A stretch of 64,000 nucleotides of DNA from Isoetes taiwanensis (taxonomy: Eukaryota > Streptophyta > Lycopodiopsida > Isoetales > Isoetaceae): contig JAJEKV010000047.1 in the NCBI GenBank assembly GCA_021234155.1, positions 7,219,071-7,283,070 of the forward strand, written 5' to 3'. Below are positions 42,521-64,000 of this stretch, piece after piece. The notes under the pieces are model-generated. The model was not told where the DNA came from. It worked only from the letters and a program-made list of their open reading frames with translations, and made no database searches. The translations under genes and the position numbers were made by a program. Positions within the stretch are counted from its first letter, which is position 1. The number at the start of each line of letters is the position of its first letter.

Positions 42521-42946
42521 TCATCGGTTATTACTATCATATATACGATCGTCTACCCCTCTAAAACATGATTCTCGGTCAATCAAGCCTTCAAGCTTAC
42601 CGCCGGGAGCGGGGTTGATAGCATCGTTGATGGTGCGGCCTTGAGATTCCCGCATGAAGTCCGGATAGTGCTTCTCAAGGTCTATCTTCATCACCCAGGT
42701 AGCATCTTCAAGCGGTAAGTGCTTCCACTTGACCAAGTATTGCAACATTTGAGTCCTTACAGTCCGTTTGTAAGCTCGATCAAGAAGAGCTTTGGGCACT
42801 ATTTCCAGCCGGGCACTATTTCGGGTATCCAAAACCTCCTCGGATCGATCGGGGTGTGTTGCTTGAAGACTCACGTGAAAGACCTTGTGGATCTTCAAGC
42901 GGGGTGGCAAGTCCAAGCGATATGCACTGTTCTCCCACGCGTTCAA
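42521..42946 (-). pseudogene. Outer element: integrase C-terminus and chromodomain
   Basis: The frame contains LPPRLKIHKVFHVSL, the GPY/F-type end of gypsy integrases, and then a chromodomain: LDRAYKRTVRTQMLQYLVKW, KHLPLEDATWV and LEKHYPDF, with the W and aromatic positions typical of the fold. In chromoviruses this domain binds modified histone tails and steers integration into heterochromatin. An upstream frame (43049-42816) carries GPFMILERVGEQCISLGL, so one or two frameshifts separate it from the main integrase. Confidence 0.85.
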
Positions 42947-43256
42947 GAATCATGAACGGCCCGGCCCATCCGGGTGCCAACTTCTTACAGTTACCAATTT
43001 TAAGCTTGGCTTGTTTTACTTTGATCTTAAGCCAAACCGACTCACCCACTGGAAGATTAGGTGGGGTTTGGCTTATCCGCTAGACTCTTCGACGACTGCG
43101 CGTGCGCCAATAAGTAACCCGAACTTCTTCCACCAAGGCCCGCATTTCTAAAAGGAGTTGTTGAGAGACCTCCACTTTAGAAGCAGGATTATGCCATGTG
43201 TCGGAGTAAGACATTGATAGCCATAATTTATCATGAAAGGAGACATTCTAGAAGAC

Positions 43257-43919
43257 TCACGCCGAAAATTGTTGTAGGCTTAATTCTACCAAGTAAATAT
43301 AATCCGCCCATTGTATTTGTTTACTCCATACATAGCTTCTTAGCATATCTTCGATAATACGATTGACACGTTCGTTTGACCATCCATCCGAGGATGGTAG
43401 GCTGTACTCATGGCAAGCTTGGTCGGATGGTGGCGAAGAAATCCTTCCGAATGCATCGACAAACTTAGGATCCCTATCCGATACAATTACTCTCGGCATC
43501 CCGCAACCTGAAAAATTTCCTTTGCAAAGAGCAAGGCGGTGTCGGCGGTGTCCGTGGTGCGACATGGCGTGAAGTGAGCCATCTTTGATAATTTGTCGAC
43601 CCGCGACCATTAAGGCATCATACCCACGGAGAGTACGTGGAAGCCCCACAATGAAATCCATGGTTATGACTTCCCACTTGGCGTTGGGCACATCCAAAGG
43701 TTGCAACTCCCCGGGAACTCTTAATTGCTCAGCCTTGGTTTGTTGACAAACCTGACACTGTTTGATGTACCTAGCAATATGCTTCTTCATGGAAGGCCAA
43801 AAATAGCTGGAGCGGATCTTAAAGTAAGTTTTCATAAAACCCGCATGTCCTGCTATAGGGCTGTTGTGTGTGTCGTGGAGAATCAGCTTTCGCACCCCTG
43901 CAGTCGCTGGAACACACAA
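43257..43919 (-). pseudogene. Outer element: integrase
   Basis: Integrase inserts the cDNA. The 220-residue frame has the HHCC zinc-binding N-terminus (LILHDTHNSPIAGHAGFMKT, then KQCQVCQQTKAE) and the catalytic core beginning WEVITMDFIVGLPRT (first Asp) with VIVSDRDPKFV (second Asp). The third acidic residue region (SNERVNRIIEDMLRSYV) is distorted by indels: the usual DGQTERVN is changed and the middle of the core is shifted. The gene is broken as read. Confidence 0.88.
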
Positions 43920-44023
43920 CTTATCTTTGTAATATAATAAATTGCCCTCCTTCTTATATGAACGGAATGCTTCACGTTCTCTATCGGTACGGGCTTCCTT
44001 ACCCGCAAGGTCTGTTCTATCTG

Positions 44024-45607
44024 CTACCCAAACTCGCTGGTGAGTGTGGAAATGGCATTACAATGGGTGCGGGTTATGAAGGGATGACGTGACAAAGCAT
44101 CCGCAACCACATTGTGCTTTCCTGGCTTGTATACAATCTCGAAGTCATATTCCTCGAGGAATTCCATCCATCTTCGCTGACGGAGATTCAGATTTGGCTG
44201 GGTGGATAGATAGCGGAGACTCTGATGATCCGTATCCAGCTGAAATCTTCTACCAAGAAGGTAGTGTCTCCAAATACGGAGAGCACGAACAACTGCCAGC
44301 AATTCCTGGTCATGGGTAGGGTATCGCTGCTCTGCATCGTTCATCTTCTTTGAATCGTAAGCAACAACTCTCCCCTCCTGCATTAGAACTCCACCAGTAG
44401 CTATCTTACTAGCGTCGGTGGCTACTGATTTATCCTTTTCAGGATCAGGCAAGGTAAGGACTGGTGCAGATGTTAAGGCATCCTTGAGCTTCTGAAAGCC
44501 GACTTGGACTTTTGTTTTCCAATGTTCCATCCAATCCTTTACTTTCTCATGCCTTGTGAGATTAGTAAGAGGTGCGGCAATTGTTGCAAAATCCTTAACA
44601 AATTTTCGATAATATCCTGCGAGTCCCAAGAAACTCCGGACCTCTGAAACATTAGCTGGAATGGGCCAATCCTTTACTGCTTCTATCTTAGCTGGGTCTG
44701 TAGCAATTCCTTCTGCTGAGATAATATGCCCCAAATAGTCTACCCTCGGAGTGGCGAACTTGCATTTAGAGAACTTGGCAAAGAGCTGATGGCGCCTTAG
44801 CTTTTGCAAAGCTAATCGAAGATGTTGTTCATGTTGCTGCAAGGTTTTACTATAGATGAGAATGTCATCAAAGAAAATGACAACAAAATCATCCAAGTAT
44901 TGGCGGAAGATGTCATTCATCAACCGCATAAACGTTGCAGGGGCATTGGTCAATCCAAAAGGCATGACGGTAAATTCATAATGCCCATATCTGGTGCGAA
45001 AAGCAGACTTATGGATGTCCTCTTCCTTAATCCTTATCTGATGGTACCCGGAGCGCAAATCAATCTTTGAGAAATATTTTGCTCCTTGCAACTGGTCCAT
45101 AAGATCATCTGCCCTAGGCAAAGCATAGCGATTCTTGATGGTATGCTTATTGAGTTGCCTATAATCAATACACATCCTTAAGGAGCCATCTTTCTTCTTG
45201 ACAAAAAGAATAGGAGCGCCAAATGGTGAAACACTGGGCCGAATAAACCCCAAATTCAGTAACTCTTGTAGCTGTTTCTTAAGCTCTGCTAACTCCGGAG
45301 GACTCATTCGATGCACGGGGCTTTCTTTGGTAGGCTTAGTACCCGGTTCAAGAGTTATCTCACATTCCACCCCTCTGAAAGGAGGAAGCTTGTGGATCTC
45401 ATCTGGAAAAAGATCGCTAAATTCTCGAAGAAGGGTAGCAATGTCCGATGGTAAGACGTCAATTACTTGCTGCTGTTTGGAGTCCGACTCAATGGAAGCA
45501 AGTTTAATGAGGCAAAGGAGTTCATTCCTGCGTATAGCCTTTCCTAGTCGCTTTTCTTCGACATTGGATCGCATGGCGGAGTGTAATGAATCACCTTTTA
45601 TCGCCAC
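44024..45607 (-). CDS. Outer element: reverse transcriptase and RNase H, 527-residue open frame
   Basis: The longest intact frame in the window. RT copies the genomic RNA and RNase H removes it. RT motifs run in order: [74 protein letters not shown] (catalytic Asp), [13 protein letters not shown], and the catalytic box [12 protein letters not shown]. The connection has [10 protein letters not shown]. RNase H follows with [30 protein letters not shown] and [11 protein letters not shown], then [19 protein letters not shown]. Upstream, protease remnants (GKYDLIVGMEFL) lie in another frame at about 45680-45730. All key RT and RNase H residues are present. Confidence 0.95.
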
Positions 45608-45896
45608 ACGTGCTCCATTAGCGGCGTTGAAGGTGACCTCCGCTTCTCGCTGGATCTATGTGGGCCCCTGGCAGACGCTTAAAAACTCCATTCCCACAAT
45701 AAGATCATATTTGCCAATGTCCATTAACTTCGGCACCCAAGGCAACCGGTGCACGGCAACGTGCATCTTTAAGGTTAATCTACGCCATTAGTGTGTCCGA
45801 TCTTACCGCTAGCTAATGTGACCGGCTTAGGTGGGATCTCAACGTTTCCAACTGCGCAGCACAGGCCATTCTAGGAGAAGCAAAATTATCGCATTA

Positions 45897-46819
45897 CTAC
45901 CCGTGTCCATCAAAATTATGAAGGGCTTCTTGTCTACTTGGCCTATTGTAGATATAATGAAGGCTGACTTTCAGCAAGTTACTGTTTCTATAGCGGCAAG
46001 AATATGAGACGCACCATGAATGTACTCGGGAGCCTTGTCTTTCCGCAGCAAGATTGGACTCCAAATCTTCCCAATCCAGTCGGCCATGGCCGGTTGGAGG
46101 CGTCTGGCGTGTGACGTACGGACAATTCTCGCATGAAGTGTCGGGCCTCATGCACCGGTAGCATGCCTTATCTCGGCTGAGCTGTTCTCACGCCTCCTTA
46201 GGGATGGACCGTAAGAGGCCCCCGAACTTCCTTACCCGCATTGTTCGCTTTATCCGCGTGCTAAAGGCGACTTTCTTCTCGGGCGGCCATAAGAATTGTC
46301 TTTGAGAGGGCCCCGGACTTGGCTTAACGGGTTTGTAAGGTGTGGGCGGCCGTGGGCTGCGAGTAAGGAGCGGTCGCGGATCTTGGCTTCTTGGCGTGTC
46401 CTCCTCAAGGCTTAATGCCTTAGCTTCCCGCCCTTTCTCGACTTTGGGTCGATGGCCTTGACCATTCGTTTAATGGATGGGGCCAACCCTTCAATGTAGC
46501 CCTCTCTTGCTCTTTTCTCATTCATTCCTCGCACGCATACAACCTCAAACGCATGAATTCTCGCGGTGTAGGCCTGCGGACATGCCTTTCTCGTTCCAAC
46601 CTATAGAAGGTCCGAATCTGTTGGCATTTGTGCGCCACGCAGGCGCGTAATCGCGATTTAAAAGCTTTAGCAAACTTCCTGAACTTGCATCTGCTCCTAT
46701 TCAGGTGTTTAGCTCTGGCGTAACCCTTCCACCAAATACGGGCAGCTCCGGTAAGGTTCGTGGTGGCGACCTTCCCTGTATCTTTCTCTGTCATTCCATA
46801 GGACTTTCCGAATTCCTTC
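45897..46819 (-). pseudogene. Outer element: gag, downstream part
   Basis: Gag forms the virus-like particle. Minus-strand frames contain KVATTNLTGAARIWWKGYAR, KFAKAFKSRLRACVAHKCQQ and, at 46151-45897, a cysteine-rich stretch (MRPDTSCENCPY) that looks like the zinc-knuckle end. The inner element's gag has the same blocks (RRIWWKGYAKAHGLSR, KFAKAFKS), showing close relationship. The part upstream of MKEFGKSYG was displaced to 60142-60587 by the insertion at 46820-46825. Confidence 0.85.
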
Positions 46820-46825
46820 ATTTCG
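46820..46825. repeat. Target-site duplication, left copy
   Basis: 'atttcg' immediately left of the inner element's 5' LTR matches 'atttcg' at 60136-60141 right of its 3' LTR. Ty3/gypsy elements normally make 5-bp duplications; the exact 5 bp within these 6 depends on where the slightly degraded LTR start is placed. Confidence 0.75.
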
Positions 46826-48502
46826 TGGACGCTCAAAGACAAAAGATCGCTCCCGGGGCGTATATTGTATTTGCCCGTCACGCAGCGTAACGCCACCCCG
46901 ATTGGCGGTGTGCCAGCGTATAGCCAAGTGGGTAGCCCCTAGGGGGCAACTTGCTAAGAATGTGCATTAGTATTAATGTGCACATTTTCCAATGTACACA
47001 TTAATGTGGGCACACATTTCCATGTGGCCACTTGATGCCAAGTGGGCCATACCCATAGGTGCAATTAATGTGCACATTTTCCAATGTACACATTCATTAA
47101 TGTGCACACATTTCCATGTGGGCACATTTGGCCACCTAGCCCTTAAAGGCAAGTGGGCCCATTACCAATTATCCCACATGCCAAAAGGGGATAATTGGAA
47201 ACCCTAGCCACCCCCCCTTGTCTATATAGGGTTGGAAACCCTAACTAACCTAATTTTCGATTTTAGGGCTTCAGAACTCTGTTTTGGCTGCCTCAACAGC
47301 CAAAACCGCATCCCAGACTCTGACTGGGAGAATTGCAACCTTAGTTTCTCTAGATTCGAGCGTTTCAGCAGGATGGTCGAGCTCAGGTCAGGAGGAGCCC
47401 CTCAAGGATCAGGTATTTGGCCAATTAGATAGTCTAAACCCTATTTTAGGCATTGAATCAGTAGGTTTAGCCTATTAGATTGCCCATAGCAGCCCTCTAG
47501 AACTCTAGATAGCAGATTCTAACTAAAGAACCTAACTCTATGATATAGATTAGATCTTGTTCTTTAGTTCTTCTGTGATGTATATGGATGATGTATCTCT
47601 GTGAACTCCTTGTATTGGGAAGGGGGGTAGAGACCTAAAGCTTTGTAGTTGATGCTCCTAGAGTAGCCTCTCTAGCACACTGTAGATGCGCCTCAGGCAC
47701 AAGAGCCACACGGTTGTGGGTGAAGGGGCCAGACTGGCTTATAAGGAGGTTCATGTTCTGACTCTTGAACGACCCCTATGGTGTGTTAGTGCACGCCGGG
47801 GTCACCGTGACTAGGTCTAATGGCTTGCCACCGCGTGTGGGCAAGGCATGGGCTCGACACTCGTGAGGTGGTGAATATGACCTTCCATTGAGTTCAAGTC
47901 GAGTCTGAGGCGGTGGCCCTCTAGTCACCTTGAGTCAAGCATTGTAGATCTCGGAGGGAGAGATCCCTACCTGCCCCATCGGAATCGGGAGATGTAACCC
48001 GGGATATAGCCCCTCGGCTATGCATCCGTGAGCGGGCTCTGATCGAGTCCCAACACTTTTCAGCCTACCGCAAAGTGTGCACGGGGAGGGGCGGATGGAG
48101 TGGACAACCCTAGGCCATGTTCTTATGCCCAAATCCATTGCCATGAATTGCATGCGCAATGAACTCGGAGACCCAAGCTTGTCGGTCCATCCCACGTGGT
48201 CCGAGCCTTGGGTAGGATTCCCTATGTGATGTCTTGATCTTCGTCTATGCGGATATGTGGAGGACCATCCTTCGCGATGGTCATATGATGTTGATGTATG
48301 TGCTCTTGACATGTATGTTTACGCTTCGCGACTAGGTAGGCCCCGAGGGAGGCGGGTGCAATGACCCTTCCACTCTTCCCACTGGAACCCGTTACGGTTG
48401 CAGTGTCATGTGGAGGGCCCTGTATTGGCACGGAGCTGGTATGGGGGATGAACTCCTGGTTGTATACGGTGAGTGCACCGTATACGAGTAGGGGACGTCA
48501 CA
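46826..48502 (+). repeat. Inner element 5' LTR
   Basis: Starts with a slightly degraded terminus (tggacgctcaaag versus tgtgacgttccaaag in the 3' LTR) and ends ggggacgtcaca. Length 1677 bp versus 1684 bp for the 3' LTR. U3 contains two copies of an enhancer-like repeat, 'aatgtgcacattttccaatg' followed by 'cacacatttccatgtgg' (about 46974 and 47067), and a TATA-type box CTATATAG at 47222-47229. About 290 nt from 47399 to 47690 are identical to the other LTR by eye. Confidence 0.92.
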
Positions 48503-48503
48503 G

Positions 48504-48515
48504 TGGTATCAGAGC
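48504..48515 (+). promoter_or_regulatory. Primer-binding site, initiator Met-tRNA type
   Basis: TGGTATCAGAGC one base after the LTR end is the standard plant retrotransposon primer-binding site complementary to the 3' end of initiator Met-tRNA. It fixes the element's plus-strand orientation and the LTR boundary. Confidence 0.93.
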
Positions 48516-48704: not shown

Positions 48705-48771
48705 GTCTCACACGTCGCGCCAGGACAGATTTCTACATTCTAGAAATCGGGCTGGGCGCAACGTGTGAGAC
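48705..48771 (+). ncRNA. Hairpin element, copy 1 (upstream of H3 ORF)
   Basis: 67-nt inverted repeat: gtctcacacgt pairs with acgtgtgagac, gcgcc with ggcgc, and inner gatttcta with tagaaatc around a 5-nt loop. It differs from copy 4 (50752-50818), about 2 kb away, at a single base by eye. It could be a structured RNA, a protein-binding cruciform or a promoter element. The ncRNA label is a guess. Confidence 0.6.
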
Positions 48772-48892: not shown

Positions 48893-48962
48893 GTCTCACA
48901 CGCGTCGGCGCCCAGACGGGTTTCTAGATTCTAGGAATCGGGAGGGCGAATAGCGGTGAGAC
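48893..48962 (+). ncRNA. Hairpin element, copy 2
   Basis: Diverged relative of copy 1: outer gtctcac...gtgagac and inner tttcta/tagga arms are kept, while the middle stem has changed on both sides. It lies 75-150 bp upstream of the TATA box at 49036. Confidence 0.6.
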
Positions 48963-49035
48963 CTTGCTTAATTAGGTGTTTTAGATGCCTTAGACAACCC
49001 AAAAGGTAGTTTAAAAGTTGACCTAAAATTGGCCC

Positions 49036-49043
49036 TATAAATA
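49036..49043 (+). promoter_or_regulatory. Internal TATA box upstream of the H3 ORF
   Basis: TATAAATA in the context ggccctataaatagaactgg, downstream of hairpins 1 and 2 and followed about 60 bp later by 'aaggcgatcttccggcgtag'. The second module (50996) has the same order and a similar leader. This suggests the H3 ORF has its own promoter independent of the LTR. Confidence 0.65.
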
Positions 49044-49564
49044 GAACTGGACCCTCCCATTTTTCCGTCCTTCCGAGAACTTATTTCGTATTGTCAAGGC
49101 GATCTTCCGGCGTAGACTCAATCGACGAACCAGTAAAATGATGGCCCGCACGGGCGGTCGCAAGGAAGCCTAGCCGAAGCGGATCCTCCGGCGCCGGCGT
49201 CTCGCCTTTTCACGGGATTCTTCCGGAACGCCTTCTCCACGCCGACGGATCTTCGTCGGCGAGGAATCGTGGTCGACCGTGAGCGACCACACGAGATCTT
49301 GGAGGATCTAACCGGACAGGCGCCATGGACCCGATCCTCAAATTAAATTGCACGGCAGAGGCGGGAAGCTGGGAGCAAAGCAGTTAAACACTTGGGGGAC
49401 GCCAACCCACGGAGGAGCAGAGGGAACAGCGAACCCACCAATAGGCCAAGAACAACCCTAAAGCTGAGATCCACCGCAGGAAGAGCAGGTAGGGAGAGGA
49501 GCAAAGAACTGCCGGAACTCACCGGGAGGAAGAGGTCGACCTAGCACGCTTCGGCCCACAAGTA

Positions 49565-50412
49565 ATGGTCAAACAAGCCACGGAGCAGAGATCAAAGGAT
49601 CAGGAAGACGCCGGCGGATCCAAGAAGAGGAGGGCCAAGGCCATCAAGGCAGGCAAGAGGAAGCTGGTCAAGGTTGGGAAGAGGGCAGAGAACCTTGTCA
49701 TCAACGAGCCGTCGGGAGGGGAGACCCCGCCCACTACCGACGATTCGGACCAAGACTACGTGCCGGGCGCAGACGGGGCAAGCTCTTCAAAGCCCCCGGT
49801 TGTAGAGGAAGAGGTACACGAGCAGACGGCCCAAGAGCAGGAGGAGGCCGGGCAGGTGGCGAAGCCCCCACCATTTCCGACGTGGGATAGAGTCAAGACC
49901 CCACGGCCGCAGCGGGAAGCCTATGTGATAGACCCCTTAAAGGTCTATCAGAAGAGGATCAGGGAGCACGACGCATATATGGCGAAGTGGGAGGCCTACA
50001 ACACCTATTACCAGGAGCACCGGGTGAGAACGATTGAAGGCGGGCACCCGACGAAGAGCCAGACACTAAAGCCACCTCCACCAAAGCCCAAGCCCCCACG
50101 AGCACCCGGGAAGAAGCGGAGCAAGAAGAAACAGGAGGAAGACAGGGCACTCAAGGAGATCCGCCACTTCCAGAAGAGTTACGGACTCCTGATTCCCCGG
50201 GCGCCGTTCCAGCGTCTGGTCCGCGAAGTCATTCAAGAATACAACACAGACATGCGCGTGACAGACGAGATGTTGCTGTGTTTGCAAGAGGCGGCCGAAG
50301 CCCACTTAGTGAAACATTTTGAAGATTCAACGGCCGCGGTGCACGTAAGAGGGTTACCCTCATGAGGCAGGATATGTATCTTGCCAGGCACATCAAGGGC
50401 GAACGACCTTGA
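49565..50412 (+). CDS. Histone H3-fold protein encoded by the inner retrotransposon (one frameshift near the C-terminus)
   Basis: A 266-residue frame from 49565 has a long basic, Pro/Glu-rich tail (residues 1-190, for example KKRRAKAIKAGKRKLVKVGK). It ends in a histone H3 fold: alpha-N/alpha-1 ALKEIRHFQKSYGLLIP and PFQRLVREVIQEYNTDMR, then alpha-2 LQEAAEAHLVKHFED. At about 50351-50356 a single missing base sends the frame to an early stop; the next frame continues VTLMRQDMYLARHIKGERP to a stop at 50410-50412, the normal H3 C-terminus. KEIRHFQK, LLIP and RVTLMR are more like plant CenH3, whereas loop 1 has the canonical H3 length without the CenH3 insertion. Normal H3 is 135 residues, so the tail is unusually long. 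No standard retrotransposon protein has this fold. It lies between the PBS and gag, behind its own TATA box. Role inferred: chromatin interaction or cDNA packaging. Confidence 0.88.
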
Positions 50413-50556
50413 GTTTTGTAAATAACTGGAAAAATTTTGTTAATATAAAGAAATTTTTGTGTAAATAAAGTGTTAAACCTTGTTTAAATAGGTCAAGATA
50501 TCGATCCCTAGCTTTTGTTTCAATTAAATTGGAGTTTTGAGCAAAATTGAGACGAT

Positions 50557-50621
50557 GTCTCACACGTCGCCGAGGGACGATTTCTACATTTTAGAAATGG
50601 GGCCGGGCGCAACGGTGAGAC
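50557..50621 (+). ncRNA. Hairpin element, copy 3
   Basis: Outer gtctcac/gtgagac and inner atttcta...tagaaat arms are kept, with a partly deleted middle stem. It lies just after the H3 ORF, about 145 bp past its stop. Confidence 0.6.
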
Positions 50622-50751
50622 CATGCCCAAAATGCCCAAAACAGTCCAAATCGACCAAGTAAGGGGTCAATTCGCCTAACTTCGATGAGTTTAGTAGAAT
50701 TACAGCCTTAGATCACCTAAATTGAGTAATCCTAGCCCAATTAGAACCCAT

Positions 50752-50818
50752 GTCTCACACGTCGCGCCAGGACAGATTTCTACATTTTAGAAATCGGGCT
50801 GGGCGCAACGTGTGAGAC
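50752..50818 (+). ncRNA. Hairpin element, copy 4 (upstream of ORF2)
   Basis: Same length as copy 1 and identical except for one base at the apical loop, although the DNA outside the two hairpins is not obviously alike. The outer 11-bp stem is perfect. Confidence 0.6.
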
Positions 50819-50995
50819 CCCACCATTCTTCACTAAATGATCTCCAAATTGCACAATAAGTTCAAGTAGCTCTCCTTAGCATGTTCAAGCCCTAGAAATA
50901 TACTTCAAACTTGCAATTGCATCACTTAATAGGTTAGAATTGCCTAATCCCAAAAGAAATTCTAAGTCTTCCAAAAATTAGGGTTTTCCCTTTCC

Positions 50996-51003
50996 TATAA
51001 ATA
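50996..51003 (+). promoter_or_regulatory. Internal TATA box upstream of ORF2
   Basis: TATAAATA in the context tttcctataaataagttccc, about 180 bp after hairpin 4 and followed by 'agggcgatctttcggctcga', which resembles the leader after the first TATA box. This is the second instance of the hairpin pair plus TATA module. Confidence 0.65.
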
Positions 51004-51112
51004 AGTTCCCCATTTCTCAATTGGTACCACGCAAATTCGCTCCCCACTTTGCTTAGGGCGATCTTTCGGCTCGAGGCGCCAAAAGATCCGTTTGATACTC
51101 CCTTCCTTGCTA

Positions 51113-52630
51113 GATCAATGGCCCTTTGCTGATTTGGGCGATGATGCCGGCAAGCCCGATTGCCCATGCCTGCGAGGTAGGATGTCAGCGACATCTTCCA
51201 AGTCTTTGTGAAAGAAATTGACATCCAAGCTTCGCCGAATGCAACCCCAAAGATATAGGCAGGTGCTAGCGGAATTTCAGGCTAGGGTAGGACCCTCCCT
51301 TGTCCAAGTCCCCCTTGCATAGGATGCCGTTCCCGCCCATCCCTTCAAAGCAGCCTTGGGCGATGTCCCCAACATCGCCAAGTACTTGACTAATAAGGCG
51401 CCAGAGGCTACCGATTACATGGTCCCGACAGCGGGGACCAAGTACTTCTCTTACACCGCCCTAGCCATCTTCTTATCCCACCGGCCGAGAACCCGATGGG
51501 GGCAACCTCTATCCCTCCGATGGAGGTAGACCCCATAGCCGAAAGCGAGGAGGAAGAGCAAATGCCGCCTGCAAAGATCAACAAGAACAGGAAGCAAGAG
51601 AGGATGAAGAAGAGTCGGACGACGAAGGATACACTGAGCTCGACTCCGGACGAAGAACGGCGCCAAGGAGAGCGGGGAGTCGATCAATTCCCGGCGAGCA
51701 GCGGGGGCATCGAGTTGCTCCCCACTTCGGGCTAGGCATCACAAGCCCAGCCCCTATCATCATCGGCGGAGAGGAGTATCTACTCCGACATCCGAACCTC
51801 CCCGAATGCGGGGAGGGAGCTCGAGTTGACCTAACTGCTCCACCAACTGCGGGGTAGACCGACACGGGCGACTTCATCGTCCGGGGAGCATCGACTTCCC
51901 CTTCAAGTGAGGGGAGTCCGACACCTACCGGGGAGGCGACCTCGATATCCGTGCCTCTGGCGGAAGATAAGGCAATTGATGGGCCGGCTGAGCGCCGGGG
52001 AGGCGTTCCTCGCCCTCCAAGAGCAGATGATGGGGATCCGTGGGAAGACCACGAGTATCCTAATGCCGGTCCTTCAATATCACCCTTGCCAAAAGGAGAA
52101 GGAATCGACCTCGGGGAGGCTCGACCAGCACAATTGAAGACTCTGGGGGAGCTCAATCAAGCAGAGGTCGACGAACTGGGCGGCACAGAGCCGGAGGCCA
52201 AACAAGCGAGAAGCTTGGCGACACACAACGGCAGTGTCATTTCAGGTACTACTTTACCTGGCTGATGGATGGGAGAATAGCGGTAGTTCACCGCAAGTTC
52301 AGTCCTGGGGCGAAGAAGGAGTGTTTATGCCGATTGCACTCTCGGGCCGGCAAGCATGCTTGAATAGCGGCAAATGTCGACTATCGTCTTAGTCAAGAGG
52401 GCAATGGCACTTGACCTCTTCGACCGCCATCCCCCACCGGCGTCGGGGAGATTAGCGATGGATGCGGCCCTTACATCCGACCGCATGAGTAGAAGACCCG
52501 GTGAGAGCCATCGGGGAGGCTCGCCAAATAGCATCATCGGGAACTTGGGTCACTTTCGGTAGGGACGGCCCAAGTTAAGAAGTTTCTTGAAGACAACCCG
52601 TCTTACCGGCGATTTCAAGACTAGTTAGAC
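51113..52630 (+). pseudogene. Inner element ORF2, unrecognised acidic/low-complexity protein, broken
   Basis: No family recognised. Open segments in changing frames suggest one decayed or mis-sequenced ORF. The first part is near 51330-51470 (AALGDVPNIAKYLTNKAPEA, then YFSYTALAIFLSH). A Ser/Glu/Lys-rich middle follows at 51496-51735 (ESEEEEQMPPAKINKNRKQE) and an acidic Pro-rich part at 51951-52265. The end is near 52570-52630 (AQVKKFLEDNPSYRRFQD). It sits where the outer element has its own ORF2, but I see no convincing similarity between the two proteins. The acidic composition would fit a histone-binding or chaperone-like partner for the upstream H3, but that is speculation. Confidence 0.4.
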
Positions 52631-52910
52631 TCTTGATCCCGGAGACTTTTTGTATCTAAAATATTACATGATATATAAATACAATTCTGCTGCACTTTAA
52701 ATGTTTTGTTGATGTATTTTGCCCCACAATTATACCAACAAACATAAACAATGCAAGAAAACAAATGGAACTAACCATATAGCCATTAATCACTTGTGGA
52801 TGCAGCTAGAGGGCTAAGCGAGGGAACGACAAACTGCGAGACCTTATAGAAGAGCAAAAACCCCGCCTGCACCACCCCCGGCAAGGAACCTATTTGAAGA
52901 TAGGGAACCC

Positions 52911-54190
52911 ATGACCCCAGAGCAGGAGATAGCCCAGATGAGGACGGATCTAGAGCAGATAAAGGCATTACTGTCCGTGCAAGCAGGAGTGGGTTCGGTG
53001 GGCAATGCTCAGTTGCCGCAAGCATCGGCTCGGAGGGAAGGAAGGGACAAGAAGAGGAGCAAGAGAAGGAGATCCCCGGTCCCGGAATCTTGGAGCTCAA
53101 GTTCGACTTCGGACTCGACTCGAGGAAGAGGAAGAGCGTGCTCGTGGAACTAACAGAGGAAAGGCAGAGGAACACCCCGGAGGGACGACAAAGAGATACG
53201 GGGGCCTCCGACTACCGTAAGAAGGTAGATTCCGCGACCGGGCAATGTATGGAAGGTCTTGAATCGAATGATTCTCGTGGGGAGAACAGCGTCAGGCTTG
53301 GAAGCAGAGGCATGGTCGGACGAGATGAGCGAAAACGAAATGCTTATGGCATGAAGGATAAGGACAAAGGCAAGAGTTGCAACAGCCAACTTGAAAGGAG
53401 CCGCCGGATTTGGTGGAAGGGGTATGCAAAGGCACACGGCTTAAGCAGGATGCTTGTAAGTTCGAAGTTTGCTAAAGCCTTCAAAAGCGCCATTACGCTC
53501 CAAGGGAACATAAGTCCAAAGATGATGCAAAGAGGTTTTAATTTGCAAAGAAGGCAACAAATCAGTTCAGAAATATCTGAGAGGAATTCATGAGGCTAAA
53601 GGTCAGATAAGCCGGAAGTTGGGAGAGAAGCATGAGAGAAAGCTATATCGAGGGGCTGAATGAGGAGATCCGCAAGTTTGTGAGAGCAATAAACCCTAGG
53701 ACAAAAGATCGAAGCGTAATCCAAGGCTATAAGCTTGCAGGGTCAGGACCTCAGAATAGCGGGCACAAGCAAAGACTACTTCCGTGAGAAAGGCAAGGCG
53801 ACGAAGCTATAGCCCCGTGGGCAGCCATCCAGGTCCAGCCTAGAACCCAATATGGTGGAAACCGGGGAAGCGGCAGGAGAAGAAGTGTGTCCTTCAAGGA
53901 CAAGCAGAGAAGTCGAACTACTCCAAAGCAAAGGCAATCCTTTTGCAAGCTTATGCCCAAGGAAAAGAGGCAGGAGTGCATAGAAAAGCAGTTGTGCTGG
54001 GTGCTTCCAGCCGGCCCATAGGACAAAGAACTGCCCCTACCGCCATGAGTGCAACTCTAGCGGAGTTGGGAGATTGGGACGCCGGTCGGGACGGCGACGG
54101 GCGAAGAGGCCCATGACTACATTCCGTGGTGAGTGTCACATCTTTGCCGCAATAGATACAGAGCAAGCAAGAGAGCCGTTATAAGGTAAT
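52911..54190 (+). pseudogene. Inner element: gag
   Basis: Starts MTPEQEIAQMRTDLEQIKAL, followed by a Lys/Arg/Ser-rich linker (KKRSKRRRSPVPESWSSSST) like that of the outer element's gag. Core blocks NDSRGENSVRLG and RRIWWKGYAKAHGLSR, then KFAKAFKS, align with the outer element's gag. A degenerate Cys/His knuckle (QECIEKQLCWVLPAGP) lies at about 53960-54020. At least three frameshifts are needed to join the blocks. Confidence 0.8.
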
Positions 54191-54503
54191 TTCCACAGTA
54201 GGGAAGGCTAAAGCTAAGTCCTTCATAGTCTTGATAGACTCAGGAAGTAGCCATAACTTTGCATCCCCCAGAATGGTTCAGATGTTGAAGTTGAAGCCGC
54301 TAAAGTCAAAACCAAGACCCGTTGTTTTAGCAAGTGGTGCAAGTAAGGCGACGGCGGCAAGAGAATTAACCGACATCGACTTGCCGGGGATTAATATCCA
54401 GATGGGAGCAGAAGTAATGGGCATTGGAAAGTATGACTTGATCATAGGAATGGAGTACCTTGGGCGGCGGGGGCCATTATCGATCGTGGAAAGCGGAAGG
54501 TGA
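54180..54503 (+). pseudogene. Inner element: aspartic protease
   Basis: Retroviral-type protease that matures the polyprotein. The frame shows the catalytic box LIDSGSSHNFAS, then PVVLASGASKATAARELTDI and GKYDLIIGMEYLGRRGPLSI, in the usual order and spacing. The frame ends at 54503 shortly after the protease; RT follows in other frames. Confidence 0.88.
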
Positions 54504-54699
54504 CCTTCCCAACGCCCGGCGGCAAGATCATTGAGATACGAGGTAAGGAAGTTGTTTCCATCATGCGGTGCATGTCTTCTAAACGGTTTGTTCAAGTGCA
54601 TCAAGAGTGAGCAAGTGGCATACATCTTCAAGCTTGAGATTAGTGAGCCGAATCGAAGGAAGCAAAAGAAGACAACGCTCGCAAGTTTGGGAAGCAAGT

Positions 54700-56090
54700 A
54701 TCTCGGCTAATCGGAGTTCCATGACCTCTTTCCGGATGAGATCAAGCAGCTCCCTCCTTATAGGGGAGTCGAAAAGCGAGATAGCACTCGAACCAGGAAC
54801 AAAGCCAACAAGCAAGGCTCCATATAGAATGACAACACAGGAGTTGTCGGAGTTGAAGAAGCGATTCGCGAGGAGCTGCTTTCGACCTAGGTTTCATTAG
54901 ACCTAGTGTCTCGCCCGTTTGGGCGCCCATTCTTTTTGTCAAGAAGAAGGATGGATCTTTGAGAATGTGCATAGACTATAGGCAGTTGAATAAGCACACC
55001 ATTAAGAACAAGTATGCGCTTCCAAGATCGGGACGACTTGATGGATCAGCTCAAGGTGCAAAGATCTTCTCAAAATCGACTTAAGGTCGCTATCATCGAT
55101 CGGGATAAAGGAAGAAGACATCCATAAGACCGCCTTTGAACGCGGTATGGGCATTATGAGTTCCACGATTAATGCCTTTCGCTTATCAAATGCCCCTTAA
55201 CGTTCATGAGGCTCATGAACGATATCTTCGGGGAGTTCCGGACACCTTTGTGATTGTTTTCTTTGACGACATTTTGGTGTATAGCAGATCCTTGAAGAGC
55301 ACGCACAACACTTGAGAAGGGTGCTAGAAAAGTTGAAGAGGCACCGGTTATGCGCCAAGTTGTCGGTGTCACTTCAAGAATGCGAGAAAAGGTGGAGTAT
55401 CTAGGTCATGTGATCTCGTGAGAAGGCATCTCAACAGACCCGCCAAGATTGAAGCCGTCATTCAAAGGGCGGCCAGAAGAATGTGCATGAAGTCGGAAGT
55501 TTCGGCCAGCCTAGGTGGTACTACGAGGAAGTTCAGAAGAACTTTGCTAAGATAGCAGCCCCGCTAAACAGACTGACGAGGGAGAAGGTGAAAGATTGGG
55601 TAGAGCATTGGCACAAGAAAGCCCAAAAGGGGTTCGAATTGTTGAAGGAAGCTTTAACAACAGCCCGGTCTTAACCCCACGGACCGGGGAGAAAGATAAG
55701 CTTGTAGCATCGGATGCGAGTAAGATAGCTACAGTGCGGTGCTTATGCAAGAAGAGCGTGTGGTAGCGTATGATTCCGGGAAGATGAACGACGCCGAGAC
55801 GCCGCTACCCAACGCATCGCATCAGGAGTTGCTTGCGGTTGTCGGGGCATTAAGAATATGGAGGCATTATCTCTTGGGAAGGAAGTTCCAATTGGATACC
55901 CACCATCGAGCCTCCAATATGTATTCACGCAACCACACCTTAATCTGAGGCGCGGCGGAGATGGATGGAGTTCCTCGAAGAATATGACTTTGATATAGTC
56001 TACAAGCCGGGAAGCTCAATGTGGTAGCAGATGCTTTCAAGGCATCCCCCGACAACTAGAGTGCATTGCAATGCAATTTCGACTCTCCGG
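54700..56090 (+). pseudogene. Inner element: reverse transcriptase and RNase H, multiply frameshifted
   Basis: Recognisable pieces in order: [30 protein letters not shown]-type fragments near 54930, [33 protein letters not shown] (catalytic Asp pair, 55258-55300), NFAKIAAPLNRLTREKVKDW, the RNase H segment VASDASKIA and [40 protein letters not shown] and FQLDTHH. At least six frame changes are needed. Compared with the intact outer-element RT, most breaks are losses of one or two bases. Confidence 0.85.
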
Positions 56091-56249
56091 GCCGACTTTG
56101 GTAAGAGGATTGAAGAGTCCTTGCCAACGGACGTGGATTTCAAGGAAGTATGGGCAAGCCTTTCTAAGGAGGCTAGAACAGGATAAAGAGCCGGGAGGCC
56201 TTCAAGCATTATAAGAAGGAAGGCAACCTGTTATACCATAAGAACAAGT

Positions 56250-57230
56250 TGTGCGTGCCGAATCATCGGGTGTAAGGAAGTTGATCCTCCATGACACGCA
56301 CAACAGCCCAATAGCTGGCCATGCGGGATTCATGAAAACATATTTCAAAAGCGCAGCAATTTATTATTGGCCAGGAATGAAGAAGCAAATAGCTCGCTAC
56401 ATCAAGGAATGTCTATTTATGCCCAGACGAGGCAGGAAGCGGCCAATTCGGGGGCATTAGAGCCGTGGCGGTGCCAAACGCTAAGTGGGAGGTAATCGGC
56501 ATGGATTTCATCACGGGACTCCCAAAAACGGAGAGGCAAGGATGCCTTAATGGTAGTGGTCGACAAGTTGTCGAAGATGGCACATTTTGTGCCTTGCGTA
56601 ACCAATGATGACCATGGATACAAACAAAGCTCTTCACCAAAGAGATCTTCGGGCTTCATGGCATGCCAAGGGAGATCATCTCCGGCGAGGATCGAAGTTC
56701 ATGAGCCTTTTGGCAAGACCTCTTTGCGACGATCCGCACGAAGCTATCCATGAGCCTGACGCATATCATCCTCGACGGATGGCAGACGGAGGCGGACCAA
56801 CAGGATTTTAGAGGACATGCTACGAAACTATGTCTGGAATAAGCAAGGTATGTGGGAAGAATTTATTCACTTGGTGGAGTTTGCATACAATAGCACCAAG
56901 CAGGAATCATCCCAAATGTCGCCGTTTATGATCAATTACGGCTATCAGTGCCTAACTCCAGACACTTGGCACAACCCCGTGTCAAAAGTGGAAGTTTCGC
57001 AGCAGATGTTGGCCGATATGCAGCAGCTTGTAGAGGAAGTTCGTGGCTATCTGCTAGCAGCAAGAAGTCGTCAAAAGAGCATCGCCGACAAGCATCGAAC
57101 AGTAAGAGAGTTCAAAGTTGGAGATGATGTTTGGCTCAAGATTAAGGTGAAGCAGCGGCTTCGGGATCGGCAATTGCAAGAAGCTTGCTCCAAGGTGGGC
57201 TGGACCTTCGGGAATAGTCGAAACTAGGCA
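56250..57230 (+). pseudogene. Inner element: integrase
   Basis: The HHCC region (RKLILHDTHNSPIAGHAGFM, then ARYIKECLFMPR where the second Cys pair is damaged) is followed by the core start WEVIGMDFITGLPK in an adjacent frame. MVVVDKLSKMAHFVPC comes next, then LLARPLCDD-type damaged core. From 56817 there is a good frame with MLRNYVWNKQGMWEEFIHLV, EFAYNSTKQESSQMSPFMIN and VGDDVWLKIKVKQRL. The arrangement matches the outer element. Confidence 0.85.
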
Positions 57231-57250
57231 ATCAAGCCTACAAGCTAGAC

Positions 57251-57589
57251 TTGCCAGCACACCTAAAGATTCATAAGGTCTTCCACGTGAGTTTGCTGAA
57301 GAAGCACACCCCAAATCCAGACGAAGTCTTGGATTCGCCAACGCTGTTGGAAATGACGGAGGAACAGCTGGAAATAGTTCCAGAATTGATTCTTGATAAA
57401 GCTTTCAAGAAAACGAGGAGATCAGAATTCCTCCAGTATTTGGTCAAGTGGAAACACTTACCGGTGGAAGACGCCACGTGGGTACTTAAGAAAGATTTAG
57501 TAAAGCAGTACCCACAGTTTATGGAGCAATGGGACGGCAAGGTCATCTCCGAAGAAATCGGCTCAGGCATGTCGATTTGTGTAGGTTAA
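57251..57589 (+). pseudogene. Inner element: integrase end and chromodomain
   Basis: PAHLKIHKVFHVSLLKKHTP is followed by a chromodomain: LILDKAFKKTRRSEFLQYLV, KWKHLPVEDATWVLKKDLVK and QYPQFMEQWDGKVISEE. It aligns closely with the outer element's domain. This is the terminal domain of pol; stop at 57587. Confidence 0.9.
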
Positions 57590-58451: not shown

Positions 58452-60135
58452 TGTGACGTTCCAAAGACGATACGCCGCTCGGGGCGTATATTGTAACCGC
58501 CACGTCACGGCGTACACGCCACCCGATTGGCGGTAATGCGCCAGCGTATAGCCAAGTGGGTAGCCCCTAGGGGGCAACTTGCTAAGAATGTGCATTAGTA
58601 TTAATGTGCACATTTTCCAATGTACACATTAATGTGGGCACACATTTCCATGTGGCCACTTGATGCCAAGTGGGCCATACCCATAGGTGCAATTAATGTG
58701 CACATTTTCCAATGTACACATTCATTAATGTGCACACATTTCCATGTGGGCACATTTGGCCACCTAGCCCTTAAAGGCAAGTGGGCCCATTACCAATTAT
58801 CCCACATGCCAAAAGGGGATAATTGGAAACCCTAGCCACCCCCTTGTCTATATAGGGTTGGAAACCCTAACTAACCTAATTTTCGATTTTAGGGCTTCAG
58901 AACTCTGTTTTGGCTGCCTCAACAGCCAAAACCGCATCCCGATTTCATTTGGGAGAATTGCAACCTTAGTTTCTCTAGATTGAAGCGTTTGCCGGGATGG
59001 TCGAGCTCAGTCGAGGAGCCCCTCAAGGATCAGGTATTTGGCCAATTAGATAGTCTAAACCCTATTTTAGGCATTGAATCAGTAGGTTTAGCCTATTAGA
59101 TTGCCCATAGCAGCCCTCTAGAACTCTAGATAGCAGATTCTAACTAAAGAACCTAACTCTATGATATAGATTAGATCTTGTTCTTTAGTTCTTCTGTGAT
59201 GTATATGGATGATGTATCTCTGTGAACTCCTTGTATTGGGAAGGGGGGTAGAGACCTAAAGCTTTGTAGTTGATGCTCCTAGAGTAGCCTCTCTAGCACA
59301 CTGTAGATGCGGCCTGTGCACAAGAGCCACACCTGGTTGTGGGTGAAGGGGCGGGCCGGGCTTATAAGGAGGTTCATGTTCGACTCTTGAGCGACCCCTA
59401 TGGTGTGTTGAAAATGCTGGGGGGTCTTTGTGACTAGGTCTAATGGCTTGCCACTGCGTGTGGGCAAGGCATGGGCTCGACACTCGTGAGGTGGTGAATA
59501 TGACCTTCCATTGAGTTCAAGTCGAATACGGGCAGTGGCCCTCTAGTCACCTTGAGTCAGCATTGTAGATCTCTGGAGGGAGAGATCCCTACCTGCCCCA
59601 TCGGGCGGGGAGATGTAACCCGGGATATAGCCCCTCGGCTATGCATCCGGTGAGCTCTGATCGAGGTCCCAACACTTTTCAGCCTACTACGCAAAGTGTG
59701 TGCACAGGGGAGGGGCGGATGGAGTGGACAACCCTAGGCCATGTTCTTATGCCGGCCAAATCCATTGCCATGAATTGCATGCGCAATGAACTCGGAGACC
59801 CAAGCTTGTCCGGTCCATCCCCGTAATGCGAGCCTTGGGTAGGATTCCCTATGTGATGTGCTGATCTTCGTCTATGCAGATATGTGGAGGACCATCCTTC
59901 GCGATGGTCATATGATGTTGATGTATGTGCTACGACATGTATGTTTACGCCCGCAGCCTAGGTAGGCCCCGAGGGAGGCGGGGTGCAATGACCCTTCCAC
60001 TCTTCCCCTTTGGAACCCGTTACGGTTTGCGGTGTCATGTGGAGGGCCACATGTATTGCACCGCGGAGCTGGTATGGGGGATGAACTCCTGGTTGTATAC
60101 AGTGAGTGCACCGTATACGAGTAGGGGACGTCACA
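58452..60135 (+). repeat. Inner element 3' LTR
   Basis: Starts TGTGACGT and ends ACGTCACA, an 8-bp perfect terminal inverted repeat. It contains the same U3 repeats and TATA-type box CTATATAG (58848-58855) as the 5' LTR. Differences from the 5' LTR are clustered in short GC-containing patches, with long identical stretches between them. Confidence 0.93.
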
Positions 60136-61549: not shown

Positions 61550-62948
61550 CCCCGCCTCTTTATCCTTAGCCCTAGGAGGTGGTGGGGCGGTCGGTGTCGC
61601 AGCTGAGAGCTACCCGGTGGTCCACCTTGGCGCGCGCCTTAGCAGATGCAACCTCCCGGTGGATAGGCAACGGCCAATGGGGCTGCCGTGAGGAGCTTCA
61701 TGCCCATCAAGGCGCAATATCGGCCCAAGGCGTAAGGGCAAGATCCCGTCGATGCAGTACATACGTAAGCGTCACGATAGGGAAGCTTCTTGTGGCGGCG
61801 GTGTAGAAAGTGCACGGAGGGGCCCACCATGAAGCTTCGACCTCGGCCCCTAAATCCGGGCTATGAAGAGGACTTGCCCGTATTTGAAGGCCGACAAAAA
61901 AAGCGGGTGAGGTGGTTACCCAAAGACCTTCCCTTGCGGAGTTTCGGATCGCGGCCACTTCCTTATCCAGTCCATGGGGACTTCTTCCTCCTTGAGCTCC
62001 TGTTGCTCCTCCTTCTTGTCGCGGGGTTATGGTATAAATCTTCACCCTCATCATCCGAAAGGGGAGGAACTTCCACCATATTAATGTTTGGGGCGTGAGG
62101 TCCCATAGCCGTGAAGGCATCCAGTGTAAAGTGAAATTTGGTTCCGCATCACGAAGTCACGAAGGCGTAATAGAGTCTCCGGGCCGGGCTCTAGAGTCTC
62201 CCGCCGGAACCGGCGAGCTGGTGCACCTCCGAGGAAGCTCGGTAGAAGTGAAGTCGATGAAATCAGCCATACAATACTCCGCAAGCTCGTAAAAGTACAT
62301 GGTCTTTGCGCGCTTGCGTCTAAATCCGCCACCACGTGATACGCCCGGATAATATCATCCAAGAGAAGGTATTCCTCGCCCCGGTGATAAATAAGCTGGA
62401 AGGCCGTCTAACCCACGACAAGCCTATCGATTGGTCGCGGCGCAATGGTAGCTCCTCCGCTAGCTCTTTCCAGCGGGCAAAGTAAGCCCATCCCTATATG
62501 CTCGTCATCCCCTCCTCGGAGGATTCCCGGCAGCTTGCCCTTCTCTGCCAAGCAAGGTTTCATCCTCAACGTATTGGTCCATGAGGATGGCTAGAGCTTA
62601 AAGTAGCTTCCGAGATTTGCTGCCTCGATCTTTGGACCTTTGGTAGGTGTTTACCCCATCTGGAAGTTTCCCCTTCAAGGCGTCATAAGCATGTGTGTCC
62701 CCGCCTAGCATCTGCCGAACTATCTCCCGCTCCAAATACAAGTGGGGAGGATCCCCCAGAGTAATACACAGAGGAAGCATTTCCTCCATGTAAAAGTCAA
62801 GGAATCCGGCGTAGTCCGGATGCCGCTGCATATTGGCAAGGAGATCTACGCGTTGGCATAGCAAAGGCTGCAGCAGGTCGAAGGGAACCTGTGGATCCCA
62901 TTTCTCTCCATCAAGGTACCAGGCAGCAAGGTCGGCGGCGGCAGCCAT
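61550..62948 (-). pseudogene. Outer element ORF2, unrecognised protein, frameshifted
   Basis: Starts at the ATG giving MAAAADLAAWYLDGEKWDPQ. The first 116 residues are open (VDLLANMQRHPDYAGFLDFY, MEEMLPLCITLGDPPHLYLE, REIVRQMLGGDTHAYDALKG), then the frame changes repeatedly down to about 61550. It looks like a globular, helix-rich protein. I do not recognise the family and it is not obviously similar to the inner element's ORF2. A TATA-like stretch and an ACGT palindrome lie just upstream (63002-63037). Confidence 0.45.
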
Positions 62949-63001
62949 GGCGCTAGAAGGAAGGAGAGAGGAAAAGAAGCGTTTTAAAATAACCTTACAG
63001 T

Positions 63002-63037
63002 CCCCTTTTAAACCCTTTTATTAAAGCTGACGTCAGC
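63002..63037 (-). promoter_or_regulatory. Candidate internal promoter for ORF2 of the outer element
   Basis: On the minus strand the 12-bp palindrome GCTGACGTCAGC (63026-63037), which contains the bZIP-type TGACGTCA site, is followed by 'tttaataaaaggg' and 'tttaaaagggg', the latter about 55 bp before the ORF2 ATG. It sits in the short gap between the H3 stop (63152) and ORF2 (62948), parallel to the promoter module between H3 and ORF2 in the inner element. Confidence 0.5.
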
Positions 63038-63151: not shown

Positions 63152-63915
63152 CTAAGGTTGCTCCCCCCGTATCCTACGGGCGAGGGCTAAATCCTTAGGC
63201 ATTATGGTGACCCTCTTTGCGTGGATAGCATAAAGGTTGGCATCACCAAAAGTGCTACCAAGTAGGCTTCGGCTGACCTCTTGAGCGCCAAATTACAAAG
63301 GTGCGGAAGCGGAGATCGGTCTTAAATTGCCGCGGCGATCTCCCATACCAGCCTCTGAAAAAGGTAGCTTCCTCGATCGGAAGGTCCGTGGACTTCTGAA
63401 ATTTGGCGGATCTCCAATGCCGCGATACCGGTCGGAACCGATGAGGCTTTCATTTGTGGCCCGTGCCCCGACGATGTTGGCACCGTCTTGGCCCCAAAGA
63501 ACCCGGGAGTTATCCACTCTCTGCTGCCTCGGCCGGAGCTGGTCTTCTTCCCAAAAGCCCCGGCGGTCTTTAACTTATCCTTGTATTGACTAGGCCTTAT
63601 ATGGGCAACTCCCTTCCTCCCGAGCTTAATCGGCCGGATCGTCGGTTTTGGGTTCGAGCCACTCCCGGATGCACCTCCTCCTGTTGGTCCTGGCTGATCT
63701 TGTCGGTCCGCTCCTCTTGCTCCAACTTCTCTCGCTCTTCCCGAGCTCTCCTTAGGTCTTCTTGGATCTCGAGCAAAAAAGTTGGGCTGCGACGCGGCGA
63801 TTAAGTTCAGCATTGTGGTACCTTTGTGGTCAAGACCCATATCTATCCGAATAGTTGTCGATAGTCTATGCTGATGTCGGGATTTCTCCCCATACAAAGC
63901 TGTTGGAACCCTCAT
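63152..63915 (-). pseudogene. Histone H3-fold protein encoded by the outer retrotransposon, several frameshifts
   Basis: The open frame from 63915 has a tail of about 160 residues (GRKGVAHIRPSQYKDKLKTA and Gly/Ser/Pro-rich parts). It then reads VPTGIAALEIRQ, matching the H3 start of alpha-N (RPGTVALREIR), and LFQRLVWEIA, matching PFQRLVREIA. In adjacent frames the rest of H3 can be followed: FQKSTDLPI, FKTDLRF (the exact canonical loop-1 phrase), SAEAYLVA and [20 protein letters not shown] followed by [10 protein letters not shown], with the stop at 63152. The core is thus nearer to canonical H3 than the inner element's copy. At least three 1-2 nt shifts interrupt it. The start codon is uncertain and another may lie beyond the window. 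Confidence 0.82.
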
Positions 63916-64000
63916 GCGGTGGTATGGGGAACCTCAATGGCTCGCCATCGATGACGGCAAAGCCGTCCCCGAGGTACGGTACTCCCCTACCCAGGGCTGC

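Follow-up and report, generated by a model that had tools for sequence, protein, structure and literature searches.

Multi-copy histone H3-fold genes under purifying selection in Ty3/gypsy retrotransposons of Isoetes taiwanensis

Histone H3 genes carried by transposons have been described in fungi, where H3-like (H3L) genes are present in 26 copies within hAT DNA transposons of Pyrenophora tritici-repentis (PMC3538342) and hAT-borne H3 is found in hundreds of RIP-inactivated copies in Pseudocercospora and its relatives (PMC6710886). Histones have also been captured by DNA viruses, among them the bracovirus H4, which is incorporated into host nucleosomes and whose action on the host depends on its longer tail (PMC9145170). 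In chromodomains that read methyl-lysine, the aromatic cage consists of Y24, W45 and Y48 (PMC3350952). The assembly of the lycophyte Isoetes taiwanensis was produced from Nanopore reads using miniasm, racon and pilon and comprises 1658.30 Mb in 204 scaffolds and 909 unscaffolded contigs; the word histone is absent from the main text of the genome paper (PMC8566536). Here we describe two nested LTR retrotransposons, each with an H3-fold gene, in a stretch of 64,000 nucleotides from this assembly (the window), and their relatives in the genome searched (1,658,258,908 bases in 1110 contigs).

Two H3-bearing elements within the window

The inner element, whose H3 gene we refer to as type 1, is a 13.3 kb Ty3/gypsy retrotransposon (46825-60135 on the + strand) with two LTRs, a PBS, a PPT, an aspartic protease and a chromodomain (Table 1). 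Its LTR stretches 46834-48502 and 58462-60135 are 93.2% identical and its PBS is of what we take to be the initiator Met tRNA type, while TGGTATCAGAG lies ~1.1 kb upstream of the H3 match in five of eight loci (L001-L008, L001 being the window's own). The LTR pair, candidate TSD, PBS and PPT of the window copy, in combination with the Pfam domain order in the frame of one sister copy (gag, protease, RT, RNase H, integrase and a C-terminal chromodomain), are those of a Ty3/gypsy chromovirus. The chromodomain of the window copy, read by eye, keeps W45 and lacks an aromatic residue where Y24 and Y48 would stand; nothing thus points to methyl-lysine reading. The initial annotation, which was made from the sequence alone, had suggested that the element may carry both a reader and its target in the form of this chromodomain and H3, an idea that these cage residues do not favour.

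The same annotation had placed an H3-fold ORF between the PBS and gag of a complete Ty3/gypsy element and had proposed a Pfam search for Histone and chromodomain profiles. Both profiles were matched, the chromodomain within gag-pol and Histone (PF00125) in ORF 49565-50365 with an E-value of 1.6e-16, and the two LTRs and the PBS bear out the placement. Against PDB the ORF matches nucleosomal H3 chains (E 2e-18), and a profile of type 1 has H3.3 and H3 chains as its best matches. A model predicted from the window ORF together with proteins of another H3 fusion set, of modest confidence (mean pLDDT 63.7, pTM 0.28), likewise has nucleosomal H3 chains as the best among the PDB matches listed (E ~1e-4). 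In a Pfam scan of five proteins Histone alone was above cut-off; CENP-T, CENP-S, CBF/NF-Y and TAF hits fall on the fold and are all below their cut-offs. Sister copies contain the full H3 fold from alphaN to alpha3, and in the window copy the last ~20 residues were correctly described as continuing in another frame, the shift lying near 50350. The tail of about 190 residues, however, was an underestimate. Position 49565 is probably not the real start, as nine full-length sisters begin with MARTKQTARK (8 exact, 1 with V for A) at a place corresponding to ~49141 of the window and have more than 300 residues before the fold. The window copy has lost this stretch of the frame from ~49141 onwards, and the part before the fold is thus >300 residues rather than 190.

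A second H3-bearing element, whose gene we refer to as type 2, is present on the opposite strand, and the inner element is inserted into its gag, the reading of which reaches both flanks of the insertion. The frame downstream of the outer H3 showed no significant similarity to the ORF2 of type-1 elements described below (E 0.65). Elsewhere in the window, frames at 22220-22984 (+) and 25227-25679 (-) resemble, by eye, LINE reverse transcriptase or post-RT sequence (FKYLGIDF, KYLGIEFSTTTHWD).

Table 1 Features of the nested elements, by position in the window
Feature	Position	Strand	Basis or remark
Outer element gag (3' part), pol, chromodomain	42524..46830	-	similarity to inner element
Candidate TSD ATTTC (5 bp)	46820-46824 and 60136-60140		flanks inner element; by eye
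5' LTR, inner (type-1) element	46825..48502	+	start inferred from TGTGACG... end of other LTR
PBS TGGTATCAGAGC	48503..48514	+	sequence
Palindromic 67-bp repeats, upstream module of H3	48705..48771 and ~48890-48964	+	half-sites at similar places in sisters
TATA box CTATAAATA, likely own promoter of H3 gene (predicted)	49035..49043	+	sequence, sister copies
5' part of H3 gene (MARTKQTARK... in sisters), frame-broken here	49141..49564	+	sister ORFs
Open part of H3 ORF (266 aa), H3 fold at end	49565..50365	+	ORF, Pfam and PDB matches
End of H3 fold in another frame (KRVTLMRQDMYLARHIKGERP, stop)	50347..50412	+	sequence
AATAAA, putative polyadenylation signal of H3 gene	50464..50469	+	sequence
Palindromic 67-bp repeats, upstream module of ORF2	50555-50622 and 50750-50819	+	half-sites at similar places in sisters
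Accessory ORF2 copy, frame-broken	51118..52640	+	alignment to sisters; bounds from sister copy
gag-pol, many frame breaks	52911..57586	+	similarity, Pfam
Aspartic protease	54231-54503	+	Pfam; within gag-pol
Chromodomain	57251-57589	+	Pfam; C-terminal end of gag-pol
3' LTR, inner element	58452..60135	+	preceded by polypurine tract AAGGTGGGGAGAA
Neighbouring part of outer gag	60136-60220	-	far side of inner element
Frame downstream of outer H3 (MAAAADLAAWYL...)	62601..63017	-	reading frame
Second H3 fold, outer element, pieces in several frames	63156..63464	-	frame-broken
N-domain of outer element's H3 protein, cut by window end	63465..64000	-	matches type-2 N-domain of L041, E 1e-20

Upstream of the H3 ORF the TATA motif CTATAAATA is present in all 20 type-1 sister copies, ~110 bp before the ATG where this is readable, and the H3 gene likely has its own promoter as predicted from this motif. 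TATAAA was not seen before the ORF in nine of ten type-2 copies. A second CTATAAATA precedes ORF2 in 18 of the 20 type-1 copies, and the half-sites TCTCACACG/CGTGTGAGA of the palindromic repeats are at similar places in sister copies, both before H3 and before ORF2; the repeats are perhaps binding sites for a putative regulator of both accessory genes. Host H3 promoters were considered as the source of the element's promoter and rejected, no half-sites being found around the 4 host H3 genes examined (of 15).

The block following the H3 gene (50413-52800) aligns end to end at 77-90% identity in 18 of 20 sister copies, in one of which ORF2 is 507 aa in length (L013:5905-7425, -). By blastn the H3 block and this block have the palindromic repeats in common and little else. 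ORF2 has no match in Pfam or PDB, and the idea of another histone was rejected on that ground; a second H3 gene within the block was likewise dismissed as there is no H3 match there.

Copy number, place and constraint of the H3 genes

A search with the window ORF gave 9889 candidates, of which 144 places, at 70-100% identity, were scored; by our own count 108 of these have no stop inside the match. We identified 693 exact matches (356+337) to the type-1 C-terminal signature AKRVTLM(K/R)QDM and 758 (379+379) to an 11-residue type-2 signature, a total of 1,451, with 0 matches for the reversed-pattern control of either; these are counts of places, whose location inside elements was checked on samples only. 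The type-1 copy of the window is frame-broken at the signature and hence absent from the 693, while its type-2 copy fits the pattern by eye. The host has 15 H3 genes, each 97-99% identical to canonical H3 over 136 residues. These account for 15 of the 96 genome matches to an 11-residue signature of canonical H3, the remaining 81 being dispersed. Two of the 81 were examined, L067 and L068. In each the H3 fold, which is broken in L068, follows an N part with similarity to that of type 2 (E 2e-8 to 3e-14), and we take them to be a third, diverged subfamily that is type-2-like.

A number of these copies were analysed for their place within elements. In 20 type-1 copies picked along the H3 match list, gag and protease follow H3 in 18, RT in 17, and integrase and chromodomain in 16, in the same orientation and order; in the stretches read for the other two (L025 and L032) no gag, protease, RT, integrase or chromodomain was found. 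We also sampled 20 RTs at even steps from 150 scored (30,359 candidates), blind to H3. At least part of the H3 fold is present 4.2-5.5 kb upstream of RT in 16 of the 20 stretches and, counting L052, in which the insert is present and the fold signature lies just past the stretch (C326:49074), the total is 17; H3 was not seen in the stretch read for the other three. The H3 gene is a conserved additional ORF present in most copies of the family. Its many genome copies and its presence in 17 of the 20 RT-sampled elements refute a one-off capture of a cellular gene, the outcome against which the initial annotation had asked for other copies to be searched. Type 2 has RT 4.3-5.5 kb downstream in three of four copies tested and in the outer element of the window; RT was not seen in the fourth.

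Selection was assessed from pooled pairwise dN/dS (Nei-Gojobori). In copies chosen by their H3 match, which lowers the values, dN/dS of the type-1 fold is 0.056 (23 copies including the window's, 253 pairs, dS 0.63), with 0.120 for the mid-insert and 0.293 for the N part in the same computation, and that of the type-2 fold is 0.024-0.029 (0.029 with 10 copies, 45 pairs), with 0.137 for the N-domain (8 copies, 28 pairs). Wrong forward frames of the fold gave 1.9 and 3.4 for type 1 and 3.5 and 10.1 for type 2. The reverse frames obtained gave 1.3, 0.16 and 8.0 for type 1 and 2.6 and 0.10 for type 2, one such frame being low because its third positions coincide with freely varying ones. Variable columns of the type-1 fold are distributed 30/12/74 over the three codon positions. 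In the RT-first sample dN/dS is 0.090 for the fold (15 copies, 105 pairs), at a nearly saturated dS of 1.49, and 0.297 for the insert, and stops interrupt the aligned H3 frame in 6 of the 16 fold-bearing copies and in L052 (7 in total). The fold is constrained under either sampling scheme. The comparison of dN/dS across copies that had been recommended at the outset thus reveals strong purifying selection on this part of the additional ORF (0.02-0.09).

A second computation, with one best frame per domain in the 20 H3-sampled type-1 copies, gave 0.051 for the fold, 0.248 for the insert, 0.212 for the chromodomain, 0.310 for protease, 0.427 for RT, 0.424 for integrase, 0.472 for gag, 0.587 for RNase H, and 0.424 and 0.515 for ORF2. 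When pieces of several frames were used the chromodomain had 0.33 and RT 0.51. Frame errors have probably raised the values for RT, integrase and RNase H, and the contrast with pol is probably in part noise. In the same 20 copies dS is higher for H3 than for protease (0.36) or chromodomain (0.23), a hint of a mosaic history, although RT (0.63) and integrase (0.65) show no such gap.

Many copies contain frame breaks or stops. The differences between the LTRs of the inner element fall into 33 clusters and leave two perfect runs of 299 bases, whereas the longest perfect run expected by chance has a mean of 63 and reached at most 138 in 2000 trials. Comparison of the window copy with its nearest sister gave 312 difference clusters, a few of them stemming from six short repeat alignments, of which 249 touch CG/CAG/CTG (183 expected from random placement). 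The clustered differences look like base-calling error at methylated cytosines (CG/CHG) in the Nanopore assembly, and many of the frame breaks may reflect long-read assembly error rather than decay. Such error means that a frame break in any one copy, such as the window's, says little about decay, and it biases dN/dS upward.

Protein architecture and relationships

Type-1 proteins are 411-439 residues in length (nine full-length sister copies) and consist of MARTKQTARK, an E-, Q-, K- and P-rich insert of >300 residues, and then ALKEIRHFQKSYGLLIPRAPFQRLVREV...HAKRVTLMRQDMYLARHIKGERP. ARTKQT is exact in some frame in 12 of 20 type-1 copies, and no recognisable H3 residues are present from position 10 to ~45. 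Type-2 proteins are of 409-420 residues (eight full-length copies) and begin with MANTKS or MAITKS, with variants; where H3 has its tail they have ~310-320 residues made up of a conserved N-domain and a linker. Neither type has the canonical N-terminal tail of H3, type 1 keeping residues 1-9 only and type 2 a MANTKS/MAITKS-like start. Residues 1-190 of the window ORF, which belong to the type-1 tail, and the type-2 N-domain each have no relative at E<=1 among 5.8 billion proteins, and no match was obtained between the type-1 insert and the type-2 N-domain (E 0.84 at best).

The fold is closer to host H3 in type 2 (85-88% identity, two copies compared) than in type 1, for which identity is 57-60% with host H3 and 53-54% with one Arabidopsis CENH3 sequence (two copies). 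C110, H113, D123 and L126, presumably residues of the H3-H3' joint, and R69, R72 and R83, which we take to be DNA-contacting arginines of H3, are unchanged in 22 of 22 type-1 copies (the window copy left out) and in 10 of 10 type-2 copies. The type-1 fold has the changes R63P, Y99 to K/H/N, L103H and R129H, and its pairing with host H4 is on this account not assured. Type 1 has K49, H53, F54, P63, A65, T85 and E87 in common with the same Arabidopsis CENH3. The longer loop 1 of CENH3, judged from that one sequence, is not found in type 1, where loop 1 is of H3 length, which argues against type 1 as a CENH3.

In a FastTree phylogeny of the ~90-residue fold, type 2 forms one clade adjoining host H3 (support 0.997) and type 1 a separate, long-branched clade (support 0.992). 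All ten type-2 copies have F54, F87, A102, G105, L124, A125 and P135 as fixed differences from host H3. These common differences and the single clade led us to reject repeated recent capture from host H3 as the origin of type-2 copies. F54 and P135 are common to both types where the host has Y54 and A135, two residues being too few to tell one capture from two. Profile comparisons align the fold only, and we therefore rejected a common origin of the inserts in type 1 and in other H3 fusions and of the type-2 N-domain.

Another family of H3 fusions, with MARTKQTARKNTGGK, a long insert and an H3 fold, was observed among database proteins; its motifs occur in 50 among the 120 homologues listed (P0015, P0104, P0038 and others) and IRHFQKS in 51 among the 120. 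Most of its proteins have a single contig listed and come from ENA sources, and some are incomplete or altered; the family has the look of another multi-copy H3 that is perhaps carried by transposons. No match in the genome of the window covers the first 168 residues of P0104; 14 of 99 alignments enter the insert and were taken as noise, their identity being 40-54% when the fold is counted in. A search of a plasmid collection gave no match.

Proposed role and comparison with described systems

The retention of H3 by selection in >1,000 places suggests that the elements use an H3 of their own to act on chromatin. That H3 is a selected accessory gene of the element we regard as very nearly certain. 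The best explanation of the whole, to which we give a probability of about one half, is that a chromodomain-bearing Ty3/gypsy lineage (chromoviruses) took up histone H3 and retained it as a working accessory gene, seemingly driven from its own promoter, the product of which would be a giant-tailed H3 variant. This variant would pair with host H4 and join nucleosomes on element cDNA, on new insertions or more widely. H4 pairing and nucleosome entry are proposed because the fold, including the H3-H3' and DNA-touching residues, is the most constrained part measured, and entry into nucleosomes is predicted with somewhat better than even confidence. The extension would occupy the place of the signalling H3 tail and so give the nucleosome an altered tail, with type 1 offering ARTKQTARK at the tip of its insert of >300 residues and type 2 an unrelated domain and linker. 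The likely gain would be altered chromatin governing the silencing or integration of the element; a benefit by way of silencing or targeting can be put forward only tentatively. The bracovirus H4, with its nucleosome entry and need for a longer tail, provides the closest functional parallel and favours element-made nucleosomes altering silencing or integration.

Other explanations were weighed against this one. A transduced host H3 gene could be a functionless passenger, as in the decaying H3 copies of fungal hAT elements; capture of H3 by transposons followed by decay has been published (PMC6710886), and frame breaks or stops are present in many copies here. Such passive capture is nevertheless already contradicted by the constraint on the fold (dN/dS 0.02-0.09 at dS 0.55-1.5), as well as by the presence of H3 in 17 of 20 RT-sampled elements and its retention in diverged subfamilies, and we consider it highly improbable. 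The H3 variant might instead be deposited in chromatin of a particular kind, which for type 1 could be that of centromeres or silent regions, and there mark the sites where the integrase of the same family lands. The same element does encode an integrase with a chromodomain, and type 1 has the seven residues listed above in common with Arabidopsis CENH3. Such steering of integration seems unlikely given that type 1 is without the longer loop 1 of CENH3 and nearer to host H3 than to CENH3, and that the chromodomain is without two of the three cage residues.

The protein may also act unassembled, as a decoy that sequesters histone chaperones or enzymes modifying the H3 tail and weakens silencing without entering nucleosomes. 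The exact ARTKQT in 12 of 20 type-1 copies, in some frame, and the unlikeness of the rest of the tail to H3 would suit such a role, though the H3-H3' joint residues are fixed, and in type 2 little of the tail motif is left while the fold is the most constrained; the odds of this explanation we judge to be low. Finally, the basic fold could condense or protect cDNA in the virus-like particle or pre-integration complex, as the histones of DNA viruses may do with viral genomes. The conservation of R69, R72 and R83, which are DNA contacts in H3, is consistent with packaging of this kind. Histones of large DNA viruses, for example Marseillevirus, do form nucleosomes (PMC9145170). In the single sister copy scanned, however, Pfam shows no further histone in either ORF2 or gag-pol, and the H3 gene seems to be driven from a promoter of its own and not to form part of gag, making packaging rather improbable.

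Few proteins are as conserved or as host-controlled as histone H3, and an H3 kept under selection by elements, with >1,000 signature matches beside 15 host genes, points to an arms race fought in the very substance of chromatin. Experiments could now ask if a transposon deposits or blocks histone marks on copies of itself, if it can give rise to H3 variants, and which tail lengths and sequences are compatible with a functional H3. In its furthest form, which we regard as speculative and doubtful, our proposal is that the lineage makes its own chromatin by providing an H3 variant for the host machinery to assemble into nucleosomes on element DNA, that the long tail blocks or redirects the tail signals for silencing and integration, and that selfish elements, whose H3 genes far outnumber those of the host, in part drive histone evolution here.

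The initial annotation knew of no described example of such a gene. As far as our searches of the open-access literature show, this holds for LTR retrotransposons, none of which appeared there with a histone, and it does not hold for transposons in general given the hAT elements of fungi (PMC3538342, PMC6710886). Those elements resemble the ones described here as transposons with an H3-like gene in many copies, and the H3L of Pyrenophora further shares tail insertions at the N-terminus, a fold that fully matches neither H3 nor CenH3, and a second ORF in the element. They are DNA transposons with terminal inverted repeats and a hAT transposase, whereas the Isoetes elements are plant LTR retrotransposons with LTRs and gag-pol, whose H3 is of two kinds with 1,451 exact signature matches in all and is under strong purifying selection. 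The additional ORFs described in plant LTR retrotransposons are likewise present in most copies of a family and conserved like its other proteins; they lie mostly between pol and the 3' LTR, and none is given as a histone in the available text (PMC7264820). Bracovirus H4 and xenomavirus H3 are captured histones with a lengthened N-terminal tail that are thought to enter host nucleosomes, although their bearers are DNA viruses and in xenomavirus H3 the tail exceeds the H3.2 tail by 35 residues (PMC9145170), where >300 are added here. Plant chromoviruses, including those of the lycophyte Selaginella, are Ty3/gypsy elements with a chromodomain, and Galadriel-like chromodomains have similarly lost the Y24 and Y48 positions; a histone gene is not mentioned for them in the accessible portion of that report (PMC3350952). 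That transposons can carry H3 was therefore known, and what is new, as far as we have seen, is an LTR retrotransposon lineage that keeps a selected and greatly extended H3 as an accessory gene.
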